Shown here in pieces: positions 23,600-26,061 of a stretch of 64,000 nt of DNA. The position numbers and the translations under genes are program-made. Below the pieces are notes generated by a model. It did not search any database and was not told the origin of the DNA. It saw only the letters and a list, made by a program, of their open reading frames with translations. The stretch comes from Tildeniella nuda ZEHNDER 1965/U140 (GTDB lineage Bacteria > Cyanobacteriota > Cyanobacteriia > Leptolyngbyales > Leptolyngbyaceae): contig JAHHIG010000008.1 in NCBI GenBank assembly GCA_019358895.1, forward strand, positions 62,001 through 126,000, in the 5' to 3' direction. How positions within the stretch are numbered: position 1 is the stretch's first letter; every line of letters begins with the position of its first letter.

Positions 23600-24283
23600 T
23601 CATAAAGTCGGCTCTGTCGCAAAGTGGTAGGGCGGCAAAGCTTCTCCCAGGTTTAGCTCCCACTGAGGGTTTTGCTGCTGCAAGGTTTGAACCTGTTGGC
23701 AAAGCTGGCTTTCGCGATCGCGTGCAACGAGTAGGTAAAGCGTTTTGGCTCCCGTTTCTGCCTCGCTGAGGTAATAGTGTGGATAAGTTTGAGCGATTGT
23801 CTGCTCGATTTGCCTCATAGCGTCCTCTTGCTGTTTTTGATACGACAGCTGAGTTTGATACTGCTCCTTTTTGGCAAGAAAGTAAGCTTTTCCTTTGACT
23901 TCTGGCGCGATCGCTAACTCCGGAAACGCTACGGGAGTAAGCTTGAGCGTGAATTCAGCTTTACCTTCCAGTTGGATGAGTTTGCTCAGATATGCCTGCT
24001 GATGCGTGTGCAGATGCGCCAGTAAGCTTGGTAAAGAGCGAAAGCTGGTACCAAACCGTAGGGGCAGCATGGTGGTTTGGCAGAACAGGCTACGGAGAAT
24101 ACGATCGTGAGCTAAGACCGCTTGCACCAGCAAGGTATCATCCTTTTGCAGACTATCTAAGTCTAAAGCTGGCTCAACGACGGCTGAAAGCTGTCCTGCA
24201 TCAGCGATTTGGACGAGGGTATCTATGCCTCGTGGCAGGGTTAAAGGTGTGAGGGGAGTCTTTAAAAAAGCGTAGGTATACAT
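23600..24283 (-). CDS. GvpL/GvpF family gas vesicle protein
   Basis: The 227 residues match GvpF/GvpL: an N-terminal MYTYAFLKTP strand, then AVLAHDRILRSLFCQTTMLPLRFGTSFRSL, and a C-terminal ferredoxin-like domain ending GEALPPYHFA. In gas-vesicle clusters this family binds GvpA and helps shell assembly. Here no gvpA, gvpC, gvpN or gvpK lies within the window. The start codon overlaps the preceding gene's stop by one base (TGATG), so it is translated with the 592-residue protein. Its role outside a gas-vesicle cluster is unknown. Confidence 0.9.
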   Translation of the reverse strand: MYTYAFLKTPLTPLTLPRGIDTLVQIADAGQLSAVVEPALDLDSLQKDDTLLVQAVLAHDRILRSLFCQTTMLPLRFGTSFRSLPSLLAHLHTHQQAYLSKLIQLEGKAEFTLKLTPVAFPELAIAPEVKGKAYFLAKKEQYQTQLSYQKQQEDAMRQIEQTIAQTYPHYYLSEAETGAKTLYLLVARDRESQLCQQVQTLQQQNPQWELNLGEALPPYHFATEPTL

Positions 24284-26061
24284 CAGAGTGCATCAGCAAC
24301 AAAGGCAAGACTCAGACTGATCTGCATCGAACCAGTTTGCCAGTCTTGCTCAACATCTTCAAGCCAAGCGATCGCAACACCGCCTCGTAACAAGCTGTAT
24401 GACAACATGGCATCATCAAGCTGCTGCTCTAAATGCGCTATCAGCGTTGCGATCGACGTGGGCTGTGAGCAGACTGTGTTGCGGGTATGAACGATCGCGT
24501 CTGATGCCAATTGTGTAGTGTTAATGAGCACCGATCGCCCTGTTGATAAATCAAGCGTGTAGTCCACATCGGTTGCTTTGAGGTGCAGCGCTGCAAGTAG
24601 TCGCAATGTGCCCTGCTGCCAATTGGCGTTGGGCTGTAGCACCTGTGCGGGGATGCCTCCAAGCAACTGCATGATTTCGTACGTGCTGCTTGTGAGCGAC
24701 CATAGCAGTTGCGGTACGAGTTCGTCCATCAGCAGCATGGGTTGCCAAAGACCTGTGCCAGGAGTGCTGAGTTGATGCGCACAAGCGATCGCGGCTTGCA
24801 CAATCAGTGTGAGTTGTACACTCTCATCATCGCCGTTGGTCTGCTGGCTTTGCAGTTGGACGAGGCTTTGTACGAGCTGTTGCTGCGTGAGGCGCTGGGT
24901 GTAGTGCTCCAGGTGGTCTGCATCTGTCACACGCACAAGCGTTGTTGGACTGAGCGCCCGACTAACAGGGTTAACTACAGACACGTGAGTTTTAGCCATC
25001 ACAGCGATCGTCCGTGTGAGGGGTGTCGCCGAAACTGGCGATGGTCTGCCCTGGGTGATTCCAATTGCCTCTTCCATCAGTTCCGCTTCAATTAATTCAG
25101 GGTGCATCGGCACCTCCTCCTGACTGCTAGCGGTTAGCGTCTGAGTGCTAAATGTAAAGCCCAGGCGGAGTCGAAGGTTGCCTGTTTGCCAGCCTGAGCC
25201 GGGTTGTAACAGCTCTACCGCTACTCCTTGTAGAAGCGTTTTAAGCCTGAATCGTTCGGCTTGCAGCGACTGCACGATCGCTGTAAGCTGATGGTCAACC
25301 TGATAGGCGGCATCGATCGAGCCATTTCTATCTCCAGCCGCAGCAGTTTGCCGGAGGGGAAGAATGCACTCGTCAGTTTGGACGATCGCATCGAGCGCCA
25401 GCAACTTCTCGGCTGAATATCCCGTTGCCAAATCAAAACACCAGCGTGCCGACGGCGTTTCTGCCTCTAGCATGACCACCAACCGCAACATGCCGCAAGA
25501 CCAGCCTGGCTCTGGCTGCCAGCATTTTGCCCTCACCCCTTCGATGAGCTGCATCGCGCTGTAAGAACTCCGCGCTAGTGCCCAGAGCAGGGAGGGGATG
25601 AGGGTGTCGATCGCGATGAAGGGGTGGGGGGATGAAAGGGATGAGGGGGTGAGGAGATGGAGGGATGTGACGGCTGACGGCTGACCGCCCATAGCTGCCT
25701 TCAAATGCCTCTCTTCGTCTCGCAACGCCTCCAGCACGTCATAGGCTTCTTCACTCACGTAAGGGAGCAAGGCTTCAAGCGTCTGTGCCTCGCTCAGCAA
25801 GCGCTCAGATGCACGGTCTAGAGAAGCTAGTGGTGACGATCGCAATGTATTGATCATGGCAACCAAACGCTGCATCGCTACCAGTGCCGCCTGAGAATGA
25901 GCGGGTATCGCGATCGCTTGCTGGCACAAAAGCGGCTCCACAACCTTGATCACCGTCCGCTGAACGGTATCCCAAACGAATGGTGGAGCGTCTTCTGCGT
26001 CGGTTTTGCAAGCAGGCGGCTCGTTTGGCAGGATCAGGGTGGAACGAGAATAGTTGGGCAT
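24283..26061 (-). CDS. 592-residue internally repeated protein coupled to GvpF/L, function unknown
   Basis: I do not recognise the family. Two large modules are visible, about residues 150-305 and 445-590. Each begins with a (I/M)D-x-L-(I/V)P-x-LLW-x-L segment and contains S-x-Y-x-x-MQL. Next comes a G-V/I...QP...W-x-x-G-x-LRL unit (175-199 and 469-494), then DL(A/S)TG (210, 504) and DAIV (224, 521). A second W-x-TG unit closes each module (279-304 and 560-587). The first 120 residues are helical with heptad-like Leu spacing. There is no signal peptide or membrane segment. It is the first gene of a two-gene unit with GvpF/L. Residues about 126-147 come from simple-repeat DNA. Confidence 0.8.
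   Translation of the reverse strand: MPNYSRSTLILPNEPPACKTDAEDAPPFVWDTVQRTVIKVVEPLLCQQAIAIPAHSQAALVAMQRLVAMINTLRSSPLASLDRASERLLSEAQTLEALLPYVSEEAYDVLEALRDEERHLKAAMGGQPSAVTSLHLLTPSSLSSPHPFIAIDTLIPSLLWALARSSYSAMQLIEGVRAKCWQPEPGWSCGMLRLVVMLEAETPSARWCFDLATGYSAEKLLALDAIVQTDECILPLRQTAAAGDRNGSIDAAYQVDHQLTAIVQSLQAERFRLKTLLQGVAVELLQPGSGWQTGNLRLRLGFTFSTQTLTASSQEEVPMHPELIEAELMEEAIGITQGRPSPVSATPLTRTIAVMAKTHVSVVNPVSRALSPTTLVRVTDADHLEHYTQRLTQQQLVQSLVQLQSQQTNGDDESVQLTLIVQAAIACAHQLSTPGTGLWQPMLLMDELVPQLLWSLTSSTYEIMQLLGGIPAQVLQPNANWQQGTLRLLAALHLKATDVDYTLDLSTGRSVLINTTQLASDAIVHTRNTVCSQPTSIATLIAHLEQQLDDAMLSYSLLRGGVAIAWLEDVEQDWQTGSMQISLSLAFVADAL
25610..25690. repeat. Low-complexity GGGATGA/GACGGCT repeats inside the 592-residue gene
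   Basis: Degenerate 7-9-bp repeats of the type seen in spacers elsewhere, including two GACGGCT units. They encode the Ser/Leu/Pro-rich linker before the first repeat module. Confidence 0.6.

Follow-up and report, generated by a model that had tools for sequence, protein, structure and literature searches.

The window analysed here, a 64,000-nucleotide stretch of the Tildeniella nuda genome, carries a real pair of overlapping genes, most readily understood as a so far undescribed addition to a machine already known. The smaller gene appears to be gvpW; for the larger one we favour, with a probability of roughly 60%, the view that its product works with GvpW in assembling the gas-vesicle shell, as an accessory confined to certain lineages and not described before. 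A sequence-only reading of the same DNA had proposed that this larger, repeat-containing protein takes the place of GvpA as the partner of GvpF/L; a gvpA-free shell is the wrong reading for this genome, and a GvpA-independent shell is not supported.

Both genes lie on the minus strand, the 592-residue gene (24283..26061) preceding the 227-residue GvpF/L gene (23600..24283). Their junction reads CTC-TGATG-TAT, and in the TGATG overlap (24281..24285, minus strand) the large gene's stop codon and the small gene's start codon have a single base in common, an arrangement that suggests translational coupling. Between the window and locus L165 of a close relative (genome G322), the large gene gives dN 0.215 and dS 0.851, and the GvpF/L gene dN 0.171 and dS 0.998; with dN well below dS, both genes look constrained, in line with purifying selection. 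When the locus was scanned for promoters and terminators, the matches stayed at chance level. A phage or defence origin of the pair was rejected, since neither protein matched PHROGs or PADLOC at E 0.01 and no plasmid match was found for the large protein.

The small protein matches the Pfam family PF06386 (GvpL_GvpF) at 117.3 bits, where the cut-off is 23.6, over profile positions 2-244 of 245, and the GvpF/L homologue coupled to a 592-residue protein through TGATG, as first read from the letters, is thus borne out. In a quick tree of 85 GvpF/L sequences (48 W-type and 37 F-type, two of the W rows being truncated copies of others), F-type and W-type proteins form two groups with an SH-aLRT of 100 for the split, and the window protein falls on the W side, like GvpW of cyanobacterial gvp clusters. 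We identify the small gene as gvpW because it groups, apart from gvpF, with the second GvpF/L gene that gvpF-G-V-W clusters contain. Its product stays far below the NCBIfam equivalog cut-offs for cyanobacterial GvpF (NF052351, 24.2 vs 350 bits) and GvpL (NF045778, 20.6 vs 200 bits); a gene on contig C15 of the same genome scores 383.2 bits on NF052351. Compact clusters elsewhere, for example in family f7 (which we take to be Nostocales), run in the order gvpF, gvpG, an oppositely oriented gvpV and then the W-type gene, whereas the window gvpW stands apart from gvpF, gvpG and gvpV and overlaps the large gene. The compact order agrees with excerpts of three papers: gvpV and gvpW are assigned downstream of gvpG in Anabaena PCC 7120 (PMC7204071), the gas-vesicle genes of Microcystis all run in one direction except gvpV (PMC6362013), and a table in PMC9501494 is likewise in agreement.

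Haloarchaeal GvpF and GvpL belong to the same Pfam family as the window protein, and by this family resemblance GvpW is likely to be an assembly factor as they are. In work by Mlouka from 2004, Microcystis gvpV and gvpW mutants reportedly had no vesicles. Excerpts of PMC9501494 describe GvpV and GvpW as not essential; the sources thus differ on the importance of GvpW, and its role is unsettled. In haloarchaea, according to the same excerpts, GvpA is bound by GvpF, while GvpL is a platform contacting other Gvp proteins (PMC9501494). One benthic Planktothrix strain is reported to be without gvpW in an excerpt of PMC5259702.

The large protein consists of two modules of about 150 residues with two related units apiece, just as the sequence-only reading had described it, and the D-L-x-T-G and DAIV landmarks named there are visible in module 1 and in module 2. 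Module 1 holds unit 1 (residues 147-232; 25366..25623) and unit 2 (residues 250-306; 25144..25314), and module 2 holds unit 3 (residues 437-526; 24484..24753) and unit 4 (residues 533-592; 24286..24465), all on the minus strand. In profile-profile comparisons, with unit profiles of up to 31 relatives, module 1 matches module 2 at E 9.5e-47, unit 1 matches unit 3 at E 1.5e-35 and unit 2 matches unit 4 at E 2.3e-21, while the four cross-unit pairs give E 6.7e-8 to 3.4e-11; all four units are mutually related. Chance similarity falls far short of explaining such a structure of two modules and four units.

Two features had escaped the sequence-only reading, namely the relation of the units to KGK domains and the MazG-derived N-terminal segment. 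As a whole, the large protein scores 38.6 bits against KGK (PF08872), above the curated cut-off of 25.6, a total to which weak stretches contribute, each of them failing E 0.01 by itself; the best of these stretches (residues 266-310, profile positions 52-98 of 119) falls mostly in unit 2. A KGK match at E 0.01 or better was found in 11 of 13 members of the large-protein family. Against an alignment of four stand-alone KGK proteins, units 2 and 4 give E 1.1e-9 and 4.2e-9, and units 1 and 3 give the weaker values of 7.9e-6 and 7.1e-6. Going by these alignments, the repeats share ancestry with the KGK domain of cyanobacteria. KGK-domain proteins have about 120 residues according to an excerpt of PMC5827413; the window protein, with 592 residues, differs in carrying four diverged units in two tandem modules, and is not a small single-domain protein with a full-length KGK domain. 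Excerpts of the same 2018 paper call the function of the KGK domain enigmatic, suggest without proof a role in protein-protein interaction, and mention that some bacterial dynamin-like proteins have KGK proteins encoded alongside (PMC5827413). Among the Pfam matches of the large protein up to E 1, PF00741, the family of the GvpA-type shell protein, is absent. Small KGK-type proteins are encoded near large-family members at L094:9861-10265 (-) in G008 and L093:7445-7810 (-) in G229.

The structural model of module 2 comprises two alpha-alpha-beta-beta units, with a mean pLDDT of 89.8 and a pTM of 0.83; its alignment kept 28 of 31 distinct rows, two being too short and L085 being truncated by a frame change. 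Compared with solved structures, module 2 gave a best Foldseek E of 0.7 and a best VIA Z of 3.7 (rmsd 5.0 over 72), and neither it nor the whole model (pLDDT 68.7) found a convincing relative among solved folds, which does not imply a novel fold. Searches and the first model were based on alignment A1, whose 13 rows include L085 with its out-of-frame tail. A frame change, which may be a sequencing error or a sign of decay, splits the large gene at two loci, L069:7722-9238 (-) in G027 and L085:5444-6965 (+) in G215.

The MazG N-terminal-like segment covers residues ~58-118 (25708..25890, minus strand). It aligns by hhalign with five cyanobacterial MazG-type proteins at E 1.1e-18, and the profile of the large-protein family matches the solved MazG structures 3cra/3crc at E 1e-9. 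What it shares with the MazG nucleoside triphosphate pyrophosphohydrolase is a stretch of ~54 aligned residues with the first, EExxE-type motif, retained in the window protein as EEAYD; what sets it apart is the second catalytic motif, ExxD in MazG, before which the alignment ends, and a complete catalytic core (EExxE + ExxD) was not found in the large protein. The Pfam MazG score of 13.9 is below the cut-off of 22, and nothing convincing in modules 1 and 2 aligns to MazG. The segment has presumably lost catalysis. The large protein as a MazG-like enzyme was rejected, relatedness being confined to the N-terminal fragment. In a profile comparison the segment matches the helical stretch between the modules weakly, with a probability of 33%. 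Another gene, of MazG type and distinct from the large one, gives a match at G000:C5.

The absence of gvpA from which the idea of another shell had started holds for the window, whose own contig gave no gvpA match, but not for the genome. Family scans of the Tildeniella assembly (38 contigs, 96% complete) place gvpA, gvpC, gvpN, a GvpJ/A-like (J-like) gene and gvpK on contig C17, which has three PF00741 matches; gvpF and gvpG are on C15, and a GvpV relative (E 9.3e-28) is on C13. The gas-vesicle genes of this organism are thus scattered over several contigs.

In the phylum sample, GvpF/L and Gas_vesicle (gvpA) matches are found in an identical set of 46 out of 292 genomes. The large-protein family occurs in 13 of these 46 and in none of the 246 gvpA-negative cyanobacteria (Fisher 7e-12), and among 42 genomes of the window's order in 19 of 34 with gvpA vs 0 of 8 without (Fisher 0.004), values that overstate independence because related species share history. 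Counted by family, 8 of 15 gvp-positive families vs 0 of 23 others carry the large gene (1.3e-4, a value that shared ancestry weakens as well; the total of 38 families is the highest family number in a listing that covers part of the genomes). The two samples together hold 30 distinct carrier genomes, and every one has gvpA (13/13 and 19/19); homologues beside gvpF/L in genomes lacking gvpA, which the sequence-only reading had led one to look for, did not turn up. Since members were found only where gas-vesicle genes are present in the sampled genomes, the large protein is probably an overlooked helper and not a new shell part. Gas vesicles do not generally require it, as 33 of the 46 gvpA-positive genomes have no detected member. 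The large protein as a replacement for GvpV was rejected, because gvpV matches in 44 of the 46 gvp-positive genomes, the window genome included, and because GvpV, small and basic, has none of the repeat units.

These counts depend on how members were recognised. Because the family profile matches MazG in most genomes (some match in 217 of 292), partial MazG hits were dropped before counting, and KGK-only matches were likewise removed; 17 of the 292 genomes had matched at first, the 13 carriers along with G005, G014, G070 and G159, where the match was to a MazG-type protein only. At most four candidates per genome were scored in the phylum sample, so diverged members may be missed there; in the window's order all candidates were scored. 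The 13 phylum carriers are made up of 12 with full-length-type members, those of G027 and G215 being the split ones, and G229 with a short two-unit protein, without which the count becomes 12/46. In G324 the large gene is cut by contig ends.

In 20 of the 30 carriers the large gene immediately precedes gvpW, with the same orientation and at a distance of no more than ~310 bases; three others (G303, G304 and G318) have it within ~2.1 kb of gvpW, across lgt and cobM, and in seven (G011, G129, G170, G213, G229, G307 and G328) the two are unlinked, with no W-type gene found in G229. Adjacency is thus not obligatory, with seven carriers lacking a linked gvpW. The two-protein complex once proposed from the letters keeps part of its ground: the pair recurs and a physical partnership is plausible, but not every carrier links the two genes. 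In the same way, of the two findings that the sequence-only reading had named as speaking against it, gvpA does lie elsewhere in the genome, while the pair is linked in most carriers. Direct pairing is seen in families f1, f4, f8, f11, f23 and f29. In G060 (L079), gvpV, the large gene and gvpW follow one another on one strand, and the 419-base gap between gvpV and the large gene has no ORF over 53 aa wholly inside it. When the 46 gvp-positive genomes were classed by hand from coordinates as compact (gvpF and the W-type gene within 5 kb) or scattered, the large gene was present in 11 of 19 with gvpW away from gvpF vs 2 of 27 with both close, an excess that may reflect lineage history rather than function.

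Linkage could also be a matter of positional inheritance without shared function, with the large protein having some other role in lineages that tend to keep gas vesicles. Plain synteny predicts shared surroundings, and those of lgt and cobM are indeed common to the window, L009 and L011 and within order f1; the seven unlinked carriers also fit, as do KGK-like single-domain matches in genomes without gvp genes (e.g. G014, G054, G111 and G123). We nonetheless find this explanation rather unlikely, as adjacency to gvpW recurs in f4, f8, f11, f23 and f29, where neighbour clustering of the linked pairs showed neither lgt nor cobM, and as not one of the 30 carriers is without gvpA.

Another possibility is that the large protein regulates gas-vesicle production, for example by holding GvpW or another Gvp protein inactive under kinase control, and has no part in building the shell. 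In G255 and G262 (both f11) the large gene begins within an ATGA overlap with a Ser/Thr kinase gene, a related kinase gene lies upstream of the large gene in G129, and a HATPase gene with weak RsbW similarity adjoins gvpW in the window, L009 and L011. The HATPase gene, however, belongs to a clpP/dnaJ neighbourhood that still adjoins gvpW in G307, a genome with the large gene at another place, and kinase genes stand beside the large gene in 3 of 30 carriers, all of one family, with part of the carrier flanks covered; a regulatory role therefore seems unlikely to us. The three f11 kinase-type genes upstream of the large gene are L082:2836-4770 (-), L080:9684-11603 (-) and L090:8911-10761 (-), one of them scanned in Pfam; the overlap is ATGA in L080 and L082, and the called frames overlap further in L090.

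That the repeat protein partners GvpF/L in a different protein shell or scaffold, for which one could cite G309 and G320 of the window's order with an open W-type gene and no gvpA found, is very improbable indeed, given that these two genomes are without the large gene, that all its carriers including the window genome have gvpA, and that sequence and fold searches (the latter with weak scores) gave no shell-like relative. The W-type open frames in question, in genomes with no PF00741 match found, are L160:7222-7896 (-) in G309 and L161:7347-8006 (+) in G320, and are either remnants after cluster loss or genes with a role without gas vesicles.

For the preferred reading, an accessory acting with GvpW in shell assembly, we suggest the following picture. 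The pair would belong with the gas-vesicle genes that this organism keeps in scattered places, and the large protein would be made together with GvpW and bind it, directly or within one complex. The four KGK-like alpha-alpha-beta-beta units might then provide binding surfaces, with the MazG helices at the N-terminus serving as a non-catalytic helical element, so that, while the vesicle shell is being nucleated, the large protein and GvpW together could support the GvpA-like proteins as a scaffold or as a platform for chaperoning. Co-expression, physical interaction with GvpW and a role in assembly are all inferred.

More tentatively, we speculate that gas vesicles are nucleated on a scaffold devoted to this task and made up of GvpW and the KGK-tandem protein, an assembly branch of the lineages with scattered gvp genes; if true, KGK units would act quite generally as adaptors in cyanobacterial protein assemblies. 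As a variant, the GvpW complex might have a role independent of gas vesicles, at which G309 and G320 might hint. Gas-vesicle gene sets have mostly been described from compact clusters. That the family is confined to gvpA genomes in our samples, and mostly stands beside gvpW, suggests that scattered lineages carry assembly parts which cluster-based searches miss; engineered gas vesicles (acoustic reporters) could profit. Searches found no literature linking gas vesicles with KGK or gvpF with MazG, subscription journals lying mostly outside their reach, and excerpts of PMC7204071, PMC6362013, PMC5259702 and PMC4982088 mention no GvpW partner of this kind. The pair offers a testable lead on the function of KGK domains and on the role of GvpW.

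The gas-vesicle genes on C17 show some further peculiarities. GvpN (L006:6636-7952 (-)) and GvpC (L006:8098-9186 (-)) have a homologous C-terminal domain in common (blastp E 4e-16, 39% over 92 columns), and GvpC matches a Pfam TrmB-like winged helix just below the cut-off. GvpK (L006:5650-6111 (-)) consists of PF05121 followed by a C-terminal GvpA-like PF00741 domain, both above cut-off; a GvpK with a GvpA-like domain is probably not unique to this organism, since a number of other genomes have a PF00741 match a short distance upstream of gvpF.
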